Origin: Streptobacillus moniliformis DSM 12112
GTDB taxonomy: Bacteria; Fusobacteriota; Fusobacteriia; Fusobacteriales; Leptotrichiaceae
DNA: 64,000 nucleotides
Direction: 5' to 3'
Assembly: GCF_000024565.1 (NCBI RefSeq)
Contig: NC_013515.1
Span: forward strand, 1,408,497-1,472,496
Part shown: positions 10,368-63,740 of the stretch, one piece after another
Position numbering within the stretch: position 1 is the first letter of the stretch
How the letters are laid out: each line of letters begins with the position of its first letter
The notes under the pieces: model-generated
What the model saw: the letters and a program-made list of their open reading frames with translations, nothing else
Databases searched by the model: none
Told to the model about the DNA's origin: nothing
Program-made: the position numbers and the translations under genes

Positions 10368-10407
10368 ATAAGACAATCTTTAATTTTTATGAAAAGAAGT
10401 GATAATA

Positions 10408-11996
10408 ATGTTTAAAATTTTAAAAAAAATAGAGAAAAAATATATTATAAGCTTATTTTTTCTAATAGTAATTGGAGCTATCTCAGAACCTTTGATAGCT
10501 TATTCATATATTCTTTTAGGTTCTAAAATAGAGGCTATAGACAATTTAGACTTTGGTTTTCTATATATATTTATAACTATCCTTTTTGCTTTAATAATAG
10601 CTGGAATAAATTATTTATTTGTAGATTTAATAATGAATGATATTGTAACAAATATTAGAAAAAAAATATTTCTATCAATTTTAAATAAGAAATCCTCAGA
10701 AATATTAAAAACATAAAAAACAAGTTATTATAACGATATTTTGAAAAAAATTGATATTTGGAAATTTAGAACTTTAAAAAGTACTATAGACATATTTGAA
10801 AAAACACTTCAAATAATCTTAACACTTTCTTTTATAACTTTAGTAGATTATAGGGTAAGTATTGTAGTTATTCTATTTCTAATCCCCCTTATAATTAACA
10901 ATATATATTTCCCTAAAAAAATGGAAAAATCATATAGAGAGTATATAGAAAAAGATAATGAACAACTTAAAAAGATGAAAGAATACTTCGATTCTATTCT
11001 AATAATTAAAAATAATAATGAAGAAAATGAATTTAGTTTAAAAATGAATGATGTATTAGAAGAACAAAATTTCTTATGGAAAAAGACATCTATATTAGGT
11101 AATTTAAGTGCTTTTATTGCAAATAGTGGAGTAATCTTATCACAATTTGCAGGTATATTTGTAAGTATATTGTTTTATAAAAATAACTATATATCTTTAG
11201 GTAGTTTAATAGCATTAATACAATTAACTATGTTTATAAATCAACCTGTAATAAATTTAATTAATTCTATAATAGGAATTAATTCTATGGGTGAAATAAA
11301 TAATTATATAGAAAATATAAATTTTGATGTAGAAGAAAAAAATCATATTATTTTGATTTCAATAATATAGATATTGTAAATTTAAACTATGAATATACTG
11401 AAGATAAAAAAGTATTTAAAGATAATCTTAATATGAGATTTGAGCAAGGCAAGAAATACTTAATAATAGGTGAAAGTGGATCAGGTAAATCAACTTTTTT
11501 AAAAATTCTTATGAAGTATCTTGAAGATTTTAAAGGTGAAATACTTGTAGATAATATATCATTAAAAGATATAAATGAAGAAACTCTTAATAAAAATATT
11601 TTCTATATTCCACAAAAGATCCATATTTTTTCAGATACAATAAAAAATAATATAGATATAAAAAATAGGTATAGTGAATCTGAAATACTAAATTCTATGA
11701 GAGAAGTTAATCTTGATAAATTAATTAAAAAAGAAGATGGTATAAATTCTATTATAGGTGAAGAAATTAATACTATTTCTGGTTGAGAAGCAGCAAGATT
11801 ATACATAGTTAAAGCAAAACTTTCAAATAAGAAAATTATAATAGCCGATGAAATATTATCTAACTTAGATAAAGAAAATTCATTGAATGTTGAAAAAAAC
11901 TTATTAAATTTAAAAGATAAAATATTAATTCATGTTGCTCATAACTATAACCAAGAATATATGGAAGAATATGATCAAATAATTAGAATAAAATAG
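10408..11996 (+). pseudogene. ABC exporter (fused permease and ATPase), broken
   Basis: Translating across three lesions gives one exporter of about 530 residues: membrane segments in the first 300 residues, a Walker A (GESGSGKST) near 11470, a degraded signature and a Walker B (IIIADEILSNLD). The lesions are an in-frame TAA at 10714-10716, a frameshift in an A tract of seven at 11336-11342, and a TGA at 11784-11786 that replaces the second Gly of the SGGE signature. ATG 10408 is preferred over GTG 10399 because AAGAAGTGAT serves as the ribosome site. It is the only long plus-strand gene in the left 50 kb. Substrate unknown. Confidence 0.75.
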
Positions 11997-29676: not shown

Positions 29677-30734
29677 CTATAGAAACATTTTTATAGGGGA
29701 TTTATTATTATATTTTACCTTATACAAACTATTTAAATTTGATACAATATAGTTTATATCATTTTGACTATAATTTTCTATATCTGTCCCCTTAGGTATA
29801 AATCTTCTTAAAAGTGTATGAATATTCTCTATATTTGGCTTTTGATAAGGACTTGCTGGTTTACAATAAAATATTTCACATCTTTTTGTATATGAACCAT
29901 ATACACTCCTACTTATTTCTTTATACTTTAAAAATTCACTACCTTGATCTGATAATAAAAGTCCAAATAATCTCTTAAAATATTTATGACCTATCCTTCT
30001 TTCAAGCCAATCTAATACTTTTACAACACTTTGTGGTTCTTTATTCTTTATCTTAAATGCAAATAGAAATTGTATCTTAGGTATAAAGAATGTAAGCAAA
30101 TAATTTATTCCACTATCTCTACTACCTTGTACTAAATCTAATTCACATATTGTAAAATTCTTATTTTTAAATACATAATTTAAAAAATCTTCATATTCTT
30201 TTCCCTCTAATAGTTTTTTCCTACTTAACATTTGATAAGTTTGTTTACTTTCATATTCCTTTACCTTAACTTTCTTTATCTTCTTTTTATCATATTTTAA
30301 TAAACCTTTTTCAATCCAGTTATATATAGTCTTTTTAGATATTTTCTCATTATATTCCTTTTGTAAATATGAAAGTATATGTGAAATAGGTTGACCTCTT
30401 TTTAATACTTTCTTTTATTTCTATCATAAGATGCTTGTGCTATTTTACTATCATATACAACATAATCATATGTACATAATTTATTTATATATCTAGGACA
30501 TTTATTACATACTATAGGTTGTTTCTTTAGTATTTCACATATATTATCTTCTATATTTTCTAAATGATTACCTATCATTTTATCGTTATATTTTAATATT
30601 CTTCTATTTTTTATTTCTCTCATAACGGTATGATATTATATTTCTAATATATTTGAAATCTCTTTAATTGTTTTACCTTCTCTTATACATAATTCTATTT
30701 TTATTCTATCTTCATATTTTAAGTTTTTATTCAT
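29677..30734 (-). pseudogene. IS30-family transposase, broken
   Basis: Read across two lesions this is an IS30-type transposase of about 350 codons: an N-terminal HTH (MNKNLKYEDRIKIELCIREG, ISNILEI), a zinc-like CNKCPRYINKLC, then a DDE catalytic domain with DQGSEF and NIENIHTLLRRFIPKGTD. An in-frame TAA near 30637 interrupts the HTH, and one A is missing in the run at 30409-30411, shifting the frame before LKRGQPISHILS. ATG 30732-30734 has AAAGGT upstream. Confidence 0.8.
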
Positions 30735-30864
30735 TTTAATTACCTTTCTTTTTAATCAAATTTTGTGCATTTGTTTTTTTTACTTTTGTGCATTTGACCT
30801 TCAAAAATAGAATAATGTATTACGCCTATAGTATTTAAATATTTATTGCCTATTTTGTCAATTA

Positions 30865-30892
30865 ATATTAAAAATGAACTAATTTGTAAATT
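30865..30892. repeat. 28-bp direct repeat, left copy
   Basis: Identical over 28 bases to 31809-31836 (begins ATATTAAAAATGAACTAATT). The two copies flank the second transposase remnant, as a long target-site duplication would. Confidence 0.7.
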
Positions 30893-31808
30893 CTTAATTG
30901 TCAATACATATGTTACATAATAAGAAATAAATTTAATATAAGTTAGAGTTAGTTAATTGTCTAAGTGTTTAATTAAGTGTTTAGTTTAGTTAAGTGTTGT
31001 TTAATGTTTTTTAATTGATTGTTAGAGTGTGTGAAGTGAGATTGGGGCAAATTTGGCTTTTTTGCCCTTTTAAGCCTCTTTCTTAACCTTAGTGAAGTAT
31101 TCCCTCACAACCTCATTTGGACTCTTAAAATTAAGCACTGTCTTTGCCCTATTATTATACAGCCTTTCATGCCTTTTAACATTTTCTATTAATTCTTCCT
31201 CGCTCCTAAATTCTTTCCTACTATACAATATCTTTCCATCTTCCCTATCCGTTACATCTTTATCATTTACAAACTCATATCCATTATCTACCTGTATAGT
31301 CTCTATCTTAAAGCCTATAGCCCTTTCTAACTCCTTAATGTACTTTGATGTCTCATATGTACTCTTTTCCTTTACAACCTTTAATACCCTCTTCCTACTA
31401 TACTCATCTATAGCAGTTATCTGATAATATCTAATCCCCTTTGATCCTACACATACTACCAAAGCTTCTATTATACCCCTTATTCTTACAACTAACATAT
31501 ACTTGGGCTAATCCATAACTTCCATGTTTTTTTAACATATTCTTTATTAGTATTAATTCTTCTTCTGTATGGGCATTTGGGCTTGTATGGGGCTTTCTTG
31601 AACCTATTATTTGTATGATAACGCCTTGCTGCTTTAGTTACTCCATTTTTTATTGCATATTCACATAATCTATGGCGAAATTTCATTTCTTCTGTTATAA
31701 TACTCATGAGAGATACACCTTTGATTGTTTTAGTTTTTGTCAAACTCTATTATATCAAATGTATCTCTCTTTTTTTATTTTTTTGTTACATATGTTTTAT
31801 CACATTAC
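30893..31808. mobile_element. second IS remnant with 28-bp target duplication
   Basis: A 916-bp segment lies between identical 28-bp repeats. Its ends show related inverted motifs (ACATATGTTACA near the left end, ACATATGTAACA on the minus strand at the right). IS1202-group elements are known for 24-29 bp target duplications, which fits; the transposase inside is also of the DDE/integrase-core type. The element was inserted into the remains of the IS30-like element. Confidence 0.55.
31070..31707 (-). pseudogene. integrase-core (IS1202/IS481-like) transposase, internally deleted
   Basis: The N-terminal HTH reads EEMKFRHRLCEYAIKNGVTK and AARRYHTN, then the frame is lost. The C-terminal part resumes with SKGIRYYQITAIDEYSRKRV, QVDNGYEFVNDKDVT and YNNRAKTVLNFKSPNEVVRE. 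The region between NDKDVT and LYSRKEF is too short: the segment that normally carries the catalytic Glu has been deleted, as has most of the middle. The element cannot be active. Confidence 0.7.
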
Positions 31809-38611: not shown

Positions 38612-40030
38612 TTATTCTGCATTCTTCTTTTTATTAGTTAAAAAGAATCCTAAAGTACATAGTCCTGAGAAAATTATTCCTATGATTATAGCTATATTTT
38701 CAACTAACCTTGTATCTATACCATTAAAGAATCTAACAAACCCTTCTGGTGCTGCAATTATATATGAAGTTACAACAACAGTCATAAACATAGCTGGAAC
38801 TAACGCTACCCAGTAATTCCTATTTCTATTTGCTAAGTATTTAACTGCTGCCCAAAGACTTATTGTTGCAAGAGTTTGATTTGACCAACTGAAATATCTC
38901 CATACAACTGAAAATTCAATGAAACAAAGTAAAATTCCTAAAATGAAAAGTGGTGTTACAACTATAAATCTATTAACTATTGGTCCTTGTTTAAGATTAA
39001 ATGCATCTGCTATTGTAAGTCTTGCACTTCTAAATGCTGTATCTCCAGAAGTTATAGGGCAAACAACAATACCTAATAGAGCTAAAACTCCTCCTATTTT
39101 ACCTAAAATACCTATTGATATCTTATTAACTACTACCGCAGGAGCTCCAGCATGTGTTAATCCTTCAATTCCTCCAAAGAAAGACATTGCAGCTGCTGCC
39201 CAAATAAGAGCTATCATACCTTCAACTATCATTGCACCGTAAAATACTCTTCTACCCTCTTTTTCTGATCTTATACATCTTGCCATCATAGGTGATTGAG
39301 TTCCATGAAATCCACTAATTGCTCCACAAGCTATAGAAATAAATAAATACGGGAAAATTGATCTTCCTGCTGGATGCATATTTACAAATGCTATTTCAGG
39401 AATTTTGAACCCTTTTAAAAGTAATCCTCCAGCTATTCCTACTGCCATTAAAAGAAGTGAAAGTCCAAATACTGGATAAATTTTTCCTATAACTTTATCA
39501 ACAGGCAAAATAGTAGCAAATAAATAATAAGTTATTATTACTCCTAACCATATTTCATATCTTATTCCTGTAATATCAGTTAAAATTTGTGCTGGACTCA
39601 TTATGAATATAACACCAACAAGTAATAATAAAACTATAGAGAATATTCTCATTAATTGTTTAGCTGTTAACCCTAAATTTTTACCAACTATTTCAGAAAC
39701 AGAAGCCCCATCTTGTCTAACAGACATCATTCCTACTAAATAATCATGAACTGCACCAGCAAAAATACATCCAAACACTATCCAAATAAAAGCTATTGGT
39801 CCCCATAAAGCTCCTGCAATTGCTCCAAATATAGGTCCAGTTCCTATTATATTAAGAGATTGTATTAAAAAAGCTCTAGTCCAACCAATTTCAACATAAT
39901 CAACACCATCACTCATTCTTTTAGATGGAGTTAACTTGTTCTCATCTGAGCCGAAAATTTTATCAACAATTTTACCATAAATAGTATATCCAAGTATAAG
40001 TGCTATAATTGAAAATATGAAACTATACAT
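38612..40030 (-). CDS. cstA: CstA-family carbon starvation protein (pyruvate/peptide transporter), copy 1
   Basis: The 472-residue protein has about twelve membrane segments and the CstA signature (VEIGWTRAFLIQSLNIIGTG near 50-70, GAVHDYLVGMMSVRQDGASV). CstA/BtsT proteins import pyruvate or peptides during carbon limitation. Its neighbour at 40514-41932 is of equal length and very similar, so the pair arose by tandem duplication that included the upstream promoter and small-RNA region. AAGGAG precedes the ATG. Confidence 0.92.
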   Translation of the reverse strand: MYSFIFSIIALILGYTIYGKIVDKIFGSDENKLTPSKRMSDGVDYVEIGWTRAFLIQSLNIIGTGPIFGAIAGALWGPIAFIWIVFGCIFAGAVHDYLVGMMSVRQDGASVSEIVGKNLGLTAKQLMRIFSIVLLLLVGVIFIMSPAQILTDITGIRYEIWLGVIITYYLFATILPVDKVIGKIYPVFGLSLLLMAVGIAGGLLLKGFKIPEIAFVNMHPAGRSIFPYLFISIACGAISGFHGTQSPMMARCIRSEKEGRRVFYGAMIVEGMIALIWAAAAMSFFGGIEGLTHAGAPAVVVNKISIGILGKIGGVLALLGIVVCPITSGDTAFRSARLTIADAFNLKQGPIVNRFIVVTPLFILGILLCFIEFSVVWRYFSWSNQTLATISLWAAVKYLANRNRNYWVALVPAMFMTVVVTSYIIAAPEGFVRFFNGIDTRLVENIAIIIGIIFSGLCTLGFFLTNKKKNAE

Positions 40031-40178: not shown

Positions 40179-40325
40179 TTGACAAAAGTAAAAAAATGGT
40201 ATTTTATTAGTGAAAATCTAAGAATTTATACTATATAATCTATATGAAATTAATTACAAATTTAAGTAAATTTATAAAATTATCAGACATAGATCCTCTT
40301 ACAATGTAGATGATTTTTATATAGT
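40179..40325 (+). ncRNA. diverged copy of the candidate small RNA
   Basis: This region aligns with 42088-42231: TTGACA at 40179, CAAATTTAAG, then TATCAGACATAGA and CTTACAATGTAG. The -10 box is weak and the terminal stem has lost several pairs, so this duplicate may be decaying. One outer pair of the inner hairpin changed on both sides (G-C to A-T), weak support for a conserved RNA stem. Confidence 0.3.
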
Positions 40326-40513: not shown

Positions 40514-41932
40514 TTATTCTACATTCTTATTTTTATTAGTTAAAAAGAATCCTAAAGTACATAATCCTGAGAAAATTATTCCTATAATTATAGCTATATT
40601 TTCAACTAAGTTTATATCTATTCCATTAAAGAATCTCACAAACCCTTCTGGTGCTGCAATTATGTATGAAGTTACAACGACTGTCATGAACATAGCTGGA
40701 ACTAAAGCCACCCAGTAGTTCTTATTTCTATTTGCTAAGTATTTAACTGCTGCCCAAAGAGTTATAGTTGCAAGAGTTTGGTTTGACCAGCTGAAATATC
40801 TCCATACAACTGAAAATTCTATGAAACAAAGTGAAATCCCTAAAATGAAAAGTGGTATTACAATTATAAATCTATTAATTATTGGTCCTTGTTTAAGATT
40901 AAATGAATCTGCTATTGTAAGTCTTGCACTTCTAAATGCTGTATCCCCAGAAGTTATAGGGCAAACAACAACTCCTAGTAGAGCTAATGCTCCTCCTATT
41001 TTACCTAAAATACCTATCGATATCTTATTAACTACTACTCCAGGTGCTCCAGCTAGTGCTAATCCCTCAATTCCTCCAAAGAAAGACATTGCAGCTGCTG
41101 CCCAAATAAGAGCTATTATACCTTCTGCTATCATTGCACCATAAAATACTCTTCTTCCTTCTTTTTCCGATCTTATACATCTTGCCATCATAGGTGATTG
41201 TGTAGCATGGAATCCACTAATTGCTCCACAAGCTATAGAAATACATAAGTAAGGGAAAATTGATTTTCCTGCTGGATGCATGTTTACAAATGCTATTTCA
41301 GGAATTGTGAATCCTTTTAAAAGTATTCCTCCACCTATTCCTATTGCCATTAAAAGAAGTGAAAGTCCAAATACTGGATAAATTTTTCCTATAACTTTAT
41401 CAACAGGTAAAATAGTTGCAAATAAATAATAAACTATTATTAGTCCTAACCATACTTCATATCTTATTCCTGTAATATCAGTCAAGATTTGTGCTGGACT
41501 CATTATGAATATAACACCAACAAGTAGTAGTAAAACAACAGAGAATATTCTCATTACTTGTTTAGCAGTTAACCCTAAATTTTTACCAACTATTTCAGAA
41601 ACAGAAGCCCCATCTTGTCTAACAGACATCATTCCTATTAAATAATCATGAACTGCACCAGCAAAAATACATCCAAATACTATCCAAATAAAAGCTGCTG
41701 GTCCCCATAAAGCCCCTGCAATTGCTCCAAATATAGGTCCTGTCCCTGCTATATTAAGAAATTGTATCAAAAAAGCTCTTGCCCAACCTATTTCAACATA
41801 ATCAACACCATCACTCATTCTTTTAGCTGGTGTTAACCTGTTCTCATCTGAACCGAAAATTTTGTCAACAAATTTACCATAAATAGCATATCCAAGTACA
41901 AGTGCCATAATTGAAAATATAAAGCTATACAT
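40514..41932 (-). CDS. cstA: CstA-family carbon starvation protein, copy 2
   Basis: The ATG at 41932, with AAAGGGG about eight bases upstream, gives 472 residues, the same as copy 1; an upstream ATG at 41965 has no ribosome site. It keeps the same motifs (VEIGWARAFLIQFLNIAGTG, GAVHDYLIGMMSVRQDG). Differences between copies are scattered and conservative, so both probably work. Transport of pyruvate or peptides is inferred from family. Confidence 0.92.
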   Translation of the reverse strand: MYSFIFSIMALVLGYAIYGKFVDKIFGSDENRLTPAKRMSDGVDYVEIGWARAFLIQFLNIAGTGPIFGAIAGALWGPAAFIWIVFGCIFAGAVHDYLIGMMSVRQDGASVSEIVGKNLGLTAKQVMRIFSVVLLLLVGVIFIMSPAQILTDITGIRYEVWLGLIIVYYLFATILPVDKVIGKIYPVFGLSLLLMAIGIGGGILLKGFTIPEIAFVNMHPAGKSIFPYLCISIACGAISGFHATQSPMMARCIRSEKEGRRVFYGAMIAEGIIALIWAAAAMSFFGGIEGLALAGAPGVVVNKISIGILGKIGGALALLGVVVCPITSGDTAFRSARLTIADSFNLKQGPIINRFIIVIPLFILGISLCFIEFSVVWRYFSWSNQTLATITLWAAVKYLANRNKNYWVALVPAMFMTVVVTSYIIAAPEGFVRFFNGIDINLVENIAIIIGIIFSGLCTLGFFLTNKNKNVE

Positions 41933-42020: not shown

Positions 42021-42087
42021 TAAGTTATTTTTAATTTTAATAAAAAAATTAATAATATAAATCTATTTTCATAATATTTTAAACTAG

Positions 42088-42115
42088 TTGACAAAAATAA
42101 GAAAAAGGGTATCAT
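42088..42115 (+). promoter_or_regulatory. predicted promoter of the candidate small RNA
   Basis: TTGACA (42088-42093), 16 bases, TATCAT (42110-42115) on the plus strand, divergent from cstA copy 2. Confidence 0.5.
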
Positions 42116-42121
42116 ATTATT

Positions 42122-42231
42122 GCAGATAGAGAAATCTATACTGTCTAATTTCTATGAAACTGAATGCAAATTTAAGCGACTTTATAAAGTCATCAGACAT
42201 AGAGCCACTTACAATGTAGGTGGTATTTTTT
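42122..42231 (+). ncRNA. candidate structured small RNA, about 110 nt
   Basis: No reading frame is present. From the 5' end three elements fold: CAG-ATAGA closing a GAAA loop with TCTAT-A-CTG; a paired region TCTATG...CTGA with TCAG-A-CATAGA that encloses the hairpin GACTTTATAAAGTC; and a terminator-like stem CCACTTACA/TGTAGGTGG followed by TATTTTTT. A plus-strand promoter stands upstream and the second, diverged copy lies at the same place beside the other cstA gene. It is not recognised as a known family. It may regulate cstA or act in trans. Confidence 0.45.
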
Positions 42232-42311
42232 GTATATAAAAATATTATTAACTCAAAGAAAATGGAAAAATTAAAATTAATAAGTCTTTCATAAGATTAT
42301 AAAAAAATAAA

Positions 42312-42330
42312 AAAGGGCAACAAGCCCTTT
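42312..42330 (-). terminator. terminator of the rRNA operon
   Basis: AAAGGGC and GCCCTTT around TTGTT, followed by a T-rich run on the minus strand. Confidence 0.8.
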
Positions 42331-42357
42331 ATGTATATAACTTAAATAACAATCAAT

Positions 42358-42434
42358 TGGCGACCTTGGAAGGATTTGAACCTTCGACCCTCTGATTAAC
42401 AGTCAGATGCTCTAACCAACTGAGCTACAAAGTC
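42358..42434 (-). tRNA. tRNA-Asn (GTT)
   Basis: The minus strand folds as a 77-nt cloverleaf with an acceptor stem GACTTTG/CAAGGTC, D stem GCTC/GAGC, anticodon loop CTGTTAA (anticodon GTT), a T arm with GGTTCAAATCC and an encoded CCA end. It is the last gene of the rRNA operon, seven bases after 5S. Confidence 0.96.
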
Positions 42435-42441
42435 AAAAAGA

Positions 42442-42551
42442 GTTTGGCAACTACCTATTTTCCCTATTACTAAGTATCTTCAGCGTACACAGACTTAACT
42501 ACTAGGTTCGAAAAGTAACTAGGTGTATCCCTGTGGCTAACATCACCAAAC
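42442..42551 (-). rRNA. rrf: 5S ribosomal RNA
   Basis: GTTTGG and CCAAAC close the outer helix; the internal CGAACC and the overall length of about 110 bases fit 5S RNA. It lies about 50 bases after the 3' end of 23S. End positions are within a few bases. Confidence 0.93.
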
Positions 42552-42603
42552 AAAAAGCAAGAAATATAAGACAATCAAAAATGAATAGTAAAGTAAAGAA
42601 TAA

Positions 42604-45510
<2,907 letters not shown>

Positions 45511-45735
45511 TATCATCTCTTTTTTATATCATCTCTATATATTTTCTCTTACAGTTTAACTACTCTATCTTTTCTTTCGTCTCTGTTTAAAGTTGTAATT
45601 CTTTACTCTCTACTATTCATTTCTCATTGTCCTATACTCTTAAATAAAAGAACTCCTTAAAGATTAAAGGAATAAATAAAGCAAACAAAAGAGTAAAAGT
45701 AAGTATAAGTGTGTTTATGTATATATATTCTCCTT
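45511..45735 (-). other. 16S-23S internal spacer without tRNA
   Basis: The 225-base spacer has no tRNA gene. It holds the arms of two processing stems: GGAATAAATAAAGCAAACAA (45669-45688) is the exact complement of a stretch above 16S near 47354, and 45599-45641 pairs with the region below 23S. Confidence 0.7.
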
Positions 45736-53715: not shown

Positions 53716-53995
53716 TGTTTTTGTTGGTTAATTATAAGATGTTATTTTATTTAAAAAAAAAGAAATTTCCATTTTGTAGAAATTTCTCTTAATTTTTATT
53801 TTATTTCAGAATAGCCCCTTATTTATTTTTTTCTAATTTTACTATTCTTTCAATCAATTGTAATATCTTTTTATTATTTTCTATATTTTCATTTTTTAAT
53901 TCCTTCAGTTCTTTTTCAAATAATTTTATCTTTAATTCATGTTCATAAACTTTTTCATCAAGTAAATTAATATTTCCATTTCTTTGTAAAGATAA
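53701..53995. repeat. 295-bp direct repeat, copy 1
   Basis: Almost identical to 61929-62219. It contains the -35 box of a poly-G promoter, the autotransporter terminator and the last 60 or so codons of the autotransporter. Differences in the noncoding part are a G/T change and the length of an A run. The coding ends are identical, while upstream parts of the genes have diverged, pointing to gene conversion. Confidence 0.8.
53761..53788 (-). terminator. terminator of autotransporter 1
   Basis: AGAAATTTC and GAAATTTCT on either side of a nine-base loop, followed by T on the minus strand. Confidence 0.75.
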
Positions 53996-55516
53996 TAACT
54001 CTTTACTTCTCTTTTCTATATTATCAAATTGATAGCCTATTCCTGCTCCTAATGATACATGTCCTCTCGTATTTATTGATCCTCCTGCTCTATAAACTAA
54101 CTTTTCATTTGAGCCTGATAATCCTATTGCAAATGCATGTTCTCCATTATAATATCCATATGATCCTGACAGGTTATGACCTTTAGCATTTACTTGGGCT
54201 AAATTTGACATTGCTATTGCATTTGCTATCCCACTATTTGCTGCTACTCCTTTTGATATATCTTCTTTTACTTTATCTGATATATCTATACTTACTTCAC
54301 TTCCACTTGCTTTTGTTTTAATGTGTTCTGATCCTTTAATACTAAAGTTTAAACCTCCATTTTTATTTAACTTTTGAGCTTCTGTACTTCCACTATCTCC
54401 ACTAATTGATATAGTATTATTTCCTAATTTATCTACTTTTTTATCAACATATTTGTGTAAAGACTTTAATTGAGCTACATTTACTGCATCTGTATCTAAT
54501 GTCCCTGCTGCTAGTCCTGTTATCTGTCTTGTTATTCCTTTTTCTATATCTCCTATTGATACTTCTCCATAATGTGATTTCCAAGCACTTGCTATTTTTG
54601 AATATTTTCTATACTTTTCTTCAAAATCTTTACTTAAATTATTATTCATAGACTTATCATTATTTTTATTTGAGTTATTCTTTTTCAACGAGTCTTCAAT
54701 TTCTTTTTCTAAGTTTAAGTATTCATCATATTTATCTTTTGTTAACTTATCTTTTAAATCTACATTTTTATCCGTTAACGCATCATATCCAAATCTATCC
54801 TTATTATTTCTTTCTTTTGCTACTGAATAAGACCCCAATGCAACAGAGTTGTGAGATTTTACTTCAGAATTACTTCCTAAAGCTGTTGCTCCAAATAAAT
54901 TATCATCTATTTTACTATCTGCTCCTATAGCCACGTTATTTTCACTATGTTTCCCATTAGATTTTGCCCTATGTCCTATAACAACTCCATTAAGCTGAGA
55001 ATGAGTATCCTCTCCTATAGATATACCTCTATTATGACTTATAGCCTTTTTTCCTAATGCTATAGATCCTGAGTTAGCTTTACTCTCTGCACCTATTGAT
55101 ATGGCATTTTGTCCGTCTGTATATGTGTTTCTACCTATGGCTATACTATCTGTTGTATTAGCATTTGCCTTTTCTCCTATTGCTATCGCATTCTTTGAAT
55201 TAGCTTGTGAGCTTGTTCCTATAGCTATTGCATTTGAAGGATCAGTACCATTAGTATTTTTGGGCGATCCTACATAAGCCCCTTTCCCTATAGATATACC
55301 ACTAGTTGCTTTAGAGGTTGCCTCTGATCCTATTGCTATTGATTCTTGCTTTTCAGCTTCTGCCTTATATCCTATAGCTATTGATTTATCTCCAGTGTCT
55401 TTTGCTTCACTTCCTATTTTTACTTTATTATTATCTACACTTATATTTGTATTTGTATTTGTGTGTGTAACCACAGAAGTAAATAAAAGAATAGTAATTA
55501 AATTATTTCTTTTCAT
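53819..55516 (-). CDS. trimeric autotransporter adhesin (YadA-like), copy 1
   Basis: The 565-residue protein has a signal peptide (MKRNNLITILLFTSVVTHT), then a head of about fifteen YadA-type repeats (SIAIG, AIAIG, SVALG spaced 14-16 residues), a neck/stalk (ITGLAAGTLDTDAVNVAQLKSL) and a YadA anchor with GYYNGEHAFAIGLSGSN and SLGAGIGYQF. In known type Vc proteins GYQF is close to the end; here about 60 further residues follow, a Leu/Lys/Glu-rich coiled coil with a start RSKELLSLQRNGN, which would sit in the periplasm. Host adhesion is inferred. Confidence 0.9.
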   Translation of the reverse strand: MKRNNLITILLFTSVVTHTNTNTNISVDNNKVKIGSEAKDTGDKSIAIGYKAEAEKQESIAIGSEATSKATSGISIGKGAYVGSPKNTNGTDPSNAIAIGTSSQANSKNAIAIGEKANANTTDSIAIGRNTYTDGQNAISIGAESKANSGSIALGKKAISHNRGISIGEDTHSQLNGVVIGHRAKSNGKHSENNVAIGADSKIDDNLFGATALGSNSEVKSHNSVALGSYSVAKERNNKDRFGYDALTDKNVDLKDKLTKDKYDEYLNLEKEIEDSLKKNNSNKNNDKSMNNNLSKDFEEKYRKYSKIASAWKSHYGEVSIGDIEKGITRQITGLAAGTLDTDAVNVAQLKSLHKYVDKKVDKLGNNTISISGDSGSTEAQKLNKNGGLNFSIKGSEHIKTKASGSEVSIDISDKVKEDISKGVAANSGIANAIAMSNLAQVNAKGHNLSGSYGYYNGEHAFAIGLSGSNEKLVYRAGGSINTRGHVSLGAGIGYQFDNIEKRSKELLSLQRNGNINLLDEKVYEHELKIKLFEKELKELKNENIENNKKILQLIERIVKLEKNK

Positions 55517-61943: not shown

Positions 61944-62219
61944 TGTTTTTTTTTGGTTAATTATAAGATGTTATTTTATTTAAAAAAAAAAGAAATTTCC
62001 ATTTTGTAGAAATTTCTCTTAATTTTTATTTTATTTCAGAATAGCCCCTTATTTATTTTTTTCTAATTTTACTATTCTTTCAATCAATTGTAATATCTTT
62101 TTATTATTTTCTATATTTTCATTTTTTAATTCCTTCAGTTCTTTTTCAAATAATTTTATCTTTAATTCATGTTCATAAACTTTTTCATCAAGTAAATTAA
62201 TATTTCCATTTCTTTGTAA
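61929..62219. repeat. 295-bp direct repeat, copy 2
   Basis: Partner of 53701-53995; includes the promoter -35 region, autotransporter terminator and 3' coding end. Confidence 0.8.
61991..62017 (-). terminator. terminator of autotransporter 2
   Basis: AGAAATTTC and GAAATTTCT around nine bases, followed by a long T run on the minus strand (ten A on the plus strand). Confidence 0.78.
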
Positions 62220-63740
62220 TGTTAATAATTCTTTACTTCTTGAACTTACACTATCAAATTGATAACCTAATCCTGCCCCTAAAGCTACATTACCTCTTGT
62301 ATTTAATGATCCACTTGCCCTATATGTTAGATTAAAGGCTTCACTTCTTCCTGATAGTCCTAATGCAAAGGCATGCTCTCCGTTATAGTAACCATATGAT
62401 CCTGCTATGTTGTGTCCTACTCCACTTATCTGTGGTAAATTTGCCATAGCTACTGCATTTGCTATCCCACTATTTGCTGCTACTCCTTTTGATATATCTG
62501 ATTTTACTTTATCACTTAAATCTACAGTTACTGTATTATCTTTAGCTATCGTTGTGATGTTTTCTGTCCCCTTAATACTAAAATCTAAGCCTCCAGATTT
62601 ATTTAATGCTTGAGCTTCTGTCTTCCCACTATCTCCACTAAATGAAATAGTATTACTACCCAACTTATCTACATATTTATGTAAAGATTTTAATTGGGCT
62701 ACATTTACTGCATCTGTGTCTTTACTACCTGCTGCTACTCCTGTTATTTGCCTTGTTATACCCTTATCTGTATCTCCTACTGACACTTCTCCATAATGAG
62801 ATTTCCATGCCATTGCTATCTTTGAATACTCTTGGTACTTTTTATAAATTTCTGTACTATTTTTTATTTTTTTATAATTTTCTTGCTTTCCATTAACAAC
62901 ATTTCCTTCTGGCATTTGTTTTTCTAATAATTCCTTAATTTCTTGTTCTAATTTATGATATTTTTCTTTATCTTCTTCAGTAAGTTTATCTTCTAATGAA
63001 ACATTTTCATTAGTTAATGCATCATAACCTAGTCTATCCTCTCTTCTCTTTGCCACTGAATATGATCCAAGTGCAACAGAATTATCTTCTTCTACTTTGG
63101 AATTACTCCCTAATGCTGTTACTCCAAATAAATCATCTCCTACATTACTATCTGATCCTATAGCAACATTATTTTCACTATGATTACCTTTAGACTTAGC
63201 TCTATTTCCTATTACTACTCCATTTAATTGTGATTCTGTTTCTTCTCCAATAGAAATTCCTTTATTATGACTTAATGCTTTTTTTCCTAATGATATTCCA
63301 GATGAATTAGCCTTACTTTCTCCTCCTATAGCTATTGCACCTTGTCCATCAGTATAAGTCTTTTTACCTATTGCTATACTATCTGTTGTATTAGCATTAG
63401 CTTTTTCTCCTATTGCTATTGCACTCTTTGAGTTTGCTTCTGAATCTGTTCCTATCGATATTGCATTTGTAGCATCATTACTATTAATTTTCCCTGTATT
63501 TGCTCCCTTACCTATAGCTATACTGGTATCTGCTTTTGCCTTAGATTCTACTCCTATTGATATAGATTCTTTCTTTTCTGCCTCTGCCTTATATCCTATA
63601 GCTATAGATTTATCTCCTGTATCTTTTGCTTCTTTTCCTAACTTTACCTTATCACTTTCTGTATTATTGTTTTGAGTTGTGTTTGTGTATGTTATTACAG
63701 AAAGAAATAAGAAAATTGTAACTAAATTATTTTTCTTCAT
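62049..63740 (-). CDS. trimeric autotransporter adhesin (YadA-like), copy 2
   Basis: The 563-residue protein has the same layout as copy 1: signal (MKKNNLVTIFLFLSVITYT), YadA-like head repeats (SIAIGYKAEA, AIAIGEKANA), ITGVAAGSKDTDAVNVAQLK, then the anchor with GYYNGEHAFALGLSGRS and ALGAGLGYQF. The last 60 or so residues (from RSKELL) nearly match copy 1 and form a coiled coil beyond the anchor. Head repeats and the linker (about 250-300) differ most. The leader and promoter are shared with copy 1. Confidence 0.9.
   Translation of the reverse strand: MKKNNLVTIFLFLSVITYTNTTQNNNTESDKVKLGKEAKDTGDKSIAIGYKAEAEKKESISIGVESKAKADTSIAIGKGANTGKINSNDATNAISIGTDSEANSKSAIAIGEKANANTTDSIAIGKKTYTDGQGAIAIGGESKANSSGISLGKKALSHNKGISIGEETESQLNGVVIGNRAKSKGNHSENNVAIGSDSNVGDDLFGVTALGSNSKVEEDNSVALGSYSVAKRREDRLGYDALTNENVSLEDKLTEEDKEKYHKLEQEIKELLEKQMPEGNVVNGKQENYKKIKNSTEIYKKYQEYSKIAMAWKSHYGEVSVGDTDKGITRQITGVAAGSKDTDAVNVAQLKSLHKYVDKLGSNTISFSGDSGKTEAQALNKSGGLDFSIKGTENITTIAKDNTVTVDLSDKVKSDISKGVAANSGIANAVAMANLPQISGVGHNIAGSYGYYNGEHAFALGLSGRSEAFNLTYRASGSLNTRGNVALGAGLGYQFDSVSSRSKELLTLQRNGNINLLDEKVYEHELKIKLFEKELKELKNENIENNKKILQLIERIVKLEKNK

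Follow-up and report, generated by a model that had tools for sequence, protein, structure and literature searches.

Between a cstA gene and an rRNA operon of Streptobacillus moniliformis DSM 12112 lies a short stretch that resembles a gene for a small non-coding RNA, and a similar stretch lies beside a second, neighbouring cstA gene. This locus raises the question of which RNA is encoded there, how it came to this place and whether it has a function of its own. The analysis covered the 64,000-nucleotide stretch of chromosome around the locus, referred to here as the window. The RNA next to the rRNA operon is called copy 2 and its counterpart copy 1. Elsewhere, the window contains two paralogous YadA-like trimeric autotransporter adhesin genes with near-identical C-terminal ends (53819–55516 and 62049–63740), an ABC transporter spread over three adjacent reading frames that looks like a broken gene (10399–11786), and transposase fragments with an integrase core domain (rve), apparently from a decayed IS element (29677–31498).

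Identity and structure of the RNA

Copy 2 was matched to the DUF3800-I family (RF02969) by the Rfam covariance model with 69.9 bits, against a gathering cut-off of 44.2, and an E-value of 1.1e-8 computed for the whole 64-kb window. The match spans model positions 1 to 115 of 115 and is the sole RF02969 match over the cut-off in the S. moniliformis genome. Membership of copy 2 in this family, which is typed as 'Gene; sRNA' by Rfam, is practically certain, and the statement of an earlier note on this DNA that no known family was recognized did not survive the covariance search. Qrr also gave a weak match, which was judged to be due to chance (22.7 bits; cut-off 50; E = 0.37).

Most other elements described in that note were recovered, including a plus-strand promoter, a structured RNA, a terminator with six T residues, and a position between cstA copy 2 on one side and the tRNA-Asn, 5S and 23S genes, on the other strand, at the 3' side. 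Coordinates are listed in Table 1. The fold was examined in an alignment of 15 homologues, consisting of 14 Leptotrichiaceae RF02969 members and copy 1. The consensus contains 26 pairs, with 91% of the cells paired and 12 pairs altered on both sides. In the shuffle control, 0 of 500 alignments were as high in paired cells or in two-sided changes, and slid alignments gave 32–43% paired cells. The three-helix fold with a 3' terminator is present in copy 2, and every aligned DUF3800-I member consists of a single structural unit without tandem repeats. The offset from promoter to RNA is constant in nearly all homologues, linked to a protein gene or solitary, and separate transcription of the RNA is therefore probable. 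Copy 2 is a predicted independently transcribed RNA of about 115–120 nt with its own promoter and terminator, in agreement with the stand-alone sRNA divergent from cstA that had been proposed. The reading as a riboswitch, or as another element controlling cstA in cis, was rejected, since the RNA is divergent from that gene, has a promoter and a terminator of its own and matches a family of sRNAs.

Table 1. Features of the RNA locus and its surroundings, in window coordinates
Feature	Position	Strand	Basis
Promoter, sigma-70/SigA type (TTGACA, 16 nt, TATCAT)	42088..42115	+	sequence; offset to RNA common to nearly all homologues
-35 box TTGACA	42088-42093	+	sequence
-10 box TATCAT, 16-nt spacer to -35	42110-42115	+	sequence
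DUF3800-I RNA, copy 2 (intact)	42115..42234	+	RF02969 match
Hairpin P1, GAAA loop	42122..42144	+	Rfam alignment; helix 1 covariation
P2 domain, outer stem TCTATG/CATAGA around conserved CTGAATGCAAATTTAAG and a covarying hairpin	42151..42203	+	Rfam alignment; helices 2 and 3
Conserved CTGAATGCAAATTTAAG segment inside P2	42160-42177	+	
Intrinsic terminator, hairpin and T6	42204..42231	+	sequence; helix 4
Terminator hairpin alone	42204-42224	+	
T6 alone	42226-42231		
Copy 1, decayed homologue of promoter and RNA	about 40179..40322	+	76% identity to copy 2
cstA copy 2, divergent neighbour	40514..41932	-	PF02554
cstA copy 1, part of the duplicated cstA–RNA block	38612..40030	-	PF02554
tRNA-Asn, end of rRNA operon; borders the G002 prophage site	42358..42434	-	ARAGORN
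Segment missing at the G002 cstA–tRNA-Asn junction, ending at AATAAGTC	42024..42274	.	pairwise comparison

DUF3800 is the usual partner of the RNA

When counted from the protein side, 75 of 76 loci encoding a DUF3800 protein of this clade have the RNA. In 35 of 36 viral records, the RNA and the DUF3800 gene share a strand and the RNA lies directly upstream; the sole exception ends at a contig edge, and one of the 35 RNAs scores 43.3 bits, slightly below the RF02969 cut-off. The same arrangement was found at all 40 genome loci examined. The end of the RNA and the DUF3800 start codon are within about 30 nt of each other. The genome loci come from Bacillota, Spirochaetota, Actinomycetota, Pseudomonadota and others, as the taxa are named in the records.

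The AlphaFold model of the DUF3800 partner (pLDDT 92.8) is closest to RNase HII (1eke) in fold comparison, with an E-value of 2e-5 and a probability of 1.00. This likeness came from fold comparison alone; when the DUF3800 profile was searched against PDB sequences, no match was obtained. All 31 sequences compared have D7, E8, D140 and D200, residues that, as putatively mapped on the model, fit an RNase-H-type acidic site. An RNase H fold and a tie to ncRNAs have been assigned to DUF3800 in published analysis (PMC10910872; also PMC12669027).

No DUF3800 gene was found directly downstream of copy 2, in the window or in the S. moniliformis genome with PF12686 and a clade-specific profile, and none was detected with these profiles in three sister species of the genus. 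The same PF12686 search was positive in genomes G007, G014, G015, G016, G019 and G029. Copy 2 is a partnerless DUF3800-I RNA, without a detectable DUF3800 gene in its genome. It shares with the family the sequence, the three-helix fold with terminator, the promoter position and a score well above the cut-off, but it differs in having no DUF3800 gene adjacent or in the genome, in lying divergent from cstA beside an rRNA operon, and in being one of two tandem copies of which the other is decayed. The RNA family is known; the genomic context of copy 2 is unusual.

Relationship of copy 2 to prophage RNAs

The RNAs nearest to copy 2 belong to sibling prophages of the Streptobacillus type and lie there between the repressor region and the integrase. 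The prophage of the sister genome G002 has the order repressor, IrrE-like gene, RNA and tyrosine integrase. Its RNA is 87% identical to the window RNA, and it has no DUF3800 gene. In IMG/VR, this prophage corresponds to L235, in which only the RNA lies between the repressor region and the integrase (L235:11000-14240), unlike its sibling L236, which has the same gene order plus a DUF3800 gene between RNA and integrase. Over 150 nt, the RNA and promoter of L236 share 90.7% identity with those in the window. In the RNA-only prophage (G002/L235), the ATGCAAAA start of DUF3800 is still present, but beyond it the sequence diverges and the gene is lost. The two siblings differ in the defence cassette located there, which in L236 (8000-14470) also contains a DUF3644/EC042_2821 endonuclease-like gene together with the RNA–DUF3800 pair.

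In the G002 prophage, the integrase ends against a terminator and tRNA-Asn that are also found at the flank of the window RNA. At the cstA–tRNA-Asn junction of G002, the RNA segment is wholly missing, and the idea that the RNA would accompany cstA in relatives was not borne out in this sister genome, where the RNA sits in the prophage. The sequence AATAAGTC, beside the rRNA terminator, is common to the window junction and the prophage/rRNA junction. The two rRNA operons of the S. moniliformis genome are 99.4% identical (window 42276-45636); this likeness stops at 42276, at AATAAGTC next to the RNA-bearing segment, and the other operon has AATAAATC in place of AATAAGTC. The end of identity at AATAAGTC is a possible integration or recombination boundary. 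A second att half-site was not found on the G002 contig, where the AATAAGTCCTTT motif occurs just once, and a search of the S. moniliformis genome for integrase relics yielded no more than one integrase, 35% identical and some 930 kb distant.

Judging by the gene orders of G002, L235 and L236 and the junction comparisons, a prophage-borne RNA–DUF3800 cassette most likely left the RNA here, and we consider it probable that copy 2 derives from a prophage. The source cassette would have had the order promoter, RNA, terminator and DUF3800, between the repressor region and the integrase, beside tRNA-Asn and the rRNA genes. Along a putative path of excision or deletion, DUF3800 and the remaining prophage would have been lost, and the RNA would have stayed at the rRNA flank, later to be duplicated with cstA.

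Duplication with cstA and selection on copy 2

The duplicated block of cstA and RNA is 87% identical. The earlier note had described the RNA as duplicated with cstA and a diverged copy as occupying the same place beside cstA copy 1. Both the duplication and the second copy are present in S. moniliformis. The association with cstA is, however, confined to this species, the partner elsewhere being DUF3800, and copy 1 is a decayed relic, so that the two RNA copies cannot be equated. On present evidence, the link between RNA and cstA is positional only. Copy 1 falls outside RF02969: a search over 2.3 kb returned no Rfam match for it, even with the threshold relaxed to E < 1. Its helices, its -10 box, which is weak, and its terminator are damaged, and its MFE is -11.3 kcal/mol, compared with -31.3 kcal/mol for copy 2. 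Across the RNA, 18 of 26 private changes in copy 1 are from GC to AT. From this pattern of change, copy 1 looks free of constraint.

Private changes since the duplication, counted at sites where two outgroup prophage RNAs agree, number 1 in copy 2 and 28 in copy 1 (p = 1e-7). The cstA coding sequences, which stem from the same duplication event, diverged evenly (42 vs 47 changes, p = 0.67). Fourfold synonymous divergence of cstA amounts to 25 of 185 sites; at this rate about 7.8 changes are expected over the 115 sites of the copy 2 RNA, and 1 is seen (Poisson P = 0.004). The imbalance between the RNA copies, set beside the even divergence of cstA, indicates that copy 2 is constrained, and purifying selection on it appears likely, with the qualification that the argument draws on one duplication and that gene conversion of cstA or re-supply of copy 2 by phage could mimic the pattern. 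Purifying selection would have held copy 2 while its tandem duplicate decayed.

These results bear on the reading that copy 2 is a neutral relic, the remainder of a lost prophage or defence cassette with no present function. The complete lack of DUF3800 in the genome and the decay of the copy beside cstA copy 1 are what such a reading predicts, and in genome G031 an RNA is indeed decaying along with a broken DUF3800 gene. Copy 2, however, has kept its promoter, all helices and its terminator, and gained its single private change over the same time and in the same region as the 28 of copy 1. We regard a neutral relic as unlikely.

Solitary RNAs in phages and other genomes

A blastn search of phage and plasmid collections with the window RNA gave no match; other family members used as queries gave matches. 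A pattern based on the RNA core identified 20 viral loci, of which 8 have no DUF3800 gene in the DNA examined, a proportion that comes from a biased sample, as pattern scans give. These 8 solitary viral RNAs pass RF02969 with 76–103 bits. No DUF3800 gene was found in the whole records L218, L219, L223, L226, L227, L234 and L235, or in a whole Mycoplasma prophage record with an RF02969 RNA, each of which may be a fragment; the control record L236 was positive in the same search. In these seven viral records and the Mycoplasma prophage record, possibly fragments, the RNA is thus carried on a phage without its cognate protein.

The solitary viral RNAs are flanked by lysis genes on one side and an integrase on the other, or else have Abi_2, HicAB or Panacea–PemK genes as neighbours. 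On one phage contig (L218:386-1369), the RNA follows the lysis genes and lies 22 nt upstream of genes encoding a Panacea (SocA-like) antitoxin and a PemK/MazF-like toxin. In another case, a solitary RNA lies 55 nt upstream of HicA. Prophages of Mycoplasma anserisalpingitidis and M. anatis have intact solitary copies after a dnaB-like gene. Unannotated, intact solitary DUF3800-I RNAs were observed downstream of dnaB in the Mycoplasma prophages L239, L240 and L241 (MW353172, MW353169 and MW353166). In Leptotrichiaceae as a whole, 8 of 14 RNAs are solitary, and several of the copies lie ahead of RelB or GNAT genes or of a RelA/SpoT-type gene, a defence candidate termed PDC-S33 by PADLOC. In two Leptotrichiaceae genomes (L021:2616-3872 and L026:625-1873), the RNA is 72–80 nt upstream of a gene for a RelA/SpoT-domain protein. 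Phages from three groups repeatedly carry intact, partnerless DUF3800-I RNAs.

The location of RNA and terminator 10–80 nt upstream of DUF3800, Panacea–PemK, HicAB, RelB and RelA/SpoT genes is consistent with a cis-acting leader, by which DUF3800-I RNAs would attenuate transcription of whichever defence or toxin–antitoxin gene follows, DUF3800 being merely the commonest. A leader role in the window is nearly excluded, however, because the plus strand downstream of copy 2 is solely antisense to tRNA-Asn, 5S and 23S. In the Mycoplasma prophages, no DUF3800-sized gene lies on the same strand before a convergent gene about 450 nt away. Retention of the RNA in the window and in these prophages is left unexplained by a leader, which we consider improbable.

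Possible function of the solitary RNA

Several known systems resemble the RNA–DUF3800 module or its solitary RNA. RCd22 of Clostridioides difficile binds and neutralizes the AbiF toxin in cis and in trans (PMC12373285). The complete DUF3800 module shares with AbiF/RCd22 the prophage gene order of promoter, ncRNA, terminator and protein and an ncRNA of about 100–130 nt, whereas the RNA family there is RF03085 and the protein a HEPN Abi_2, and here the protein is the RNase-HII-like DUF3800. Type III toxin–antitoxin systems (ToxIN, CptIN and TenpIN) also have an RNA upstream of a nuclease gene, a predicted one in the DUF3800 module; ToxI, however, is a tandem-repeat pseudoknot cut by ToxN, but DUF3800-I is one folded unit without such repeats. 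Phages can hold an antitoxin RNA without the toxin, as in pseudo-ToxI (PMC3475682), and with Racrs they keep repeat RNAs alone to defeat defence (PMC10651486). Racrs are similar to solitary DUF3800-I RNAs in being lone phage-borne copies of an RNA whose usual place is in a host defence complex, but they mimic CRISPR repeats, and the DUF3800-I RNA has no such target.

Based on the RCd22–AbiF layout and on phages that keep lone antitoxin or repeat RNAs, we infer that the window RNA may be an antidote acting in trans. In the complete module, the RNA would bind and restrain the RNase-HII-like DUF3800, as RCd22 does with AbiF and ToxI with ToxN, and the terminator between RNA and DUF3800 may set the RNA:protein ratio. 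Gene order and the RNase-HII-like fold of the partner point indirectly to such neutralization of a nuclease. A solitary RNA would then be a standing antidote in trans, guarding the cell or the carrier phage against DUF3800 modules on mobile DNA. No demonstration of DUF3800 toxicity or of an antitoxin role of the DUF3800-I RNA was found in the publications consulted. For copy 2, a trans antitoxin or antidote role is, by this analogy, a plausible suggestion that falls somewhat short of probable.

Although its stand-alone promoter and terminator and its duplication along with cstA would suit a regulatory sRNA that was domesticated, acts in trans and has nothing to do with DUF3800, such as one base-pairing with mRNAs like that of the divergent cstA, this is very unlikely, as the conserved parts match DUF3800-linked RNAs (37 of the 43 strongly conserved columns of the DUF3800-I RNA are kept by copy 2), the cstA gene of G002 has no such RNA, and the RNA beside cstA copy 1 decayed though that cstA copy is intact.

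Taken as a whole, the reading of copy 2 as a stand-alone, prophage-derived RNA that selection maintains and that probably binds DUF3800 nucleases in trans in the manner of an antitoxin has in our estimate an even chance of being right. More broadly, solitary DUF3800-I RNAs might form a recurrent RNA-only antidote class, with temperate phages of Fusobacteriota, Bacillota and Mycoplasmatota, and this chromosome, keeping the RNA without the nuclease to neutralize modules in hosts or incoming elements; this extension is tentative and rather doubtful.

DUF3800 RNAs have so far been catalogued from sequence, without an assigned function. At this locus the RNA is intact, the protein is absent and a decayed duplicate provides an internal control, which suggests that the RNA acts in trans in its own right. 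If the solitary RNA protects against an RNA–DUF3800 module, this module would join AbiF and the type III systems as an RNA-controlled defence. If the antidote reading is true, the solitary RNAs would represent a new sort of RNA anti-defence element.
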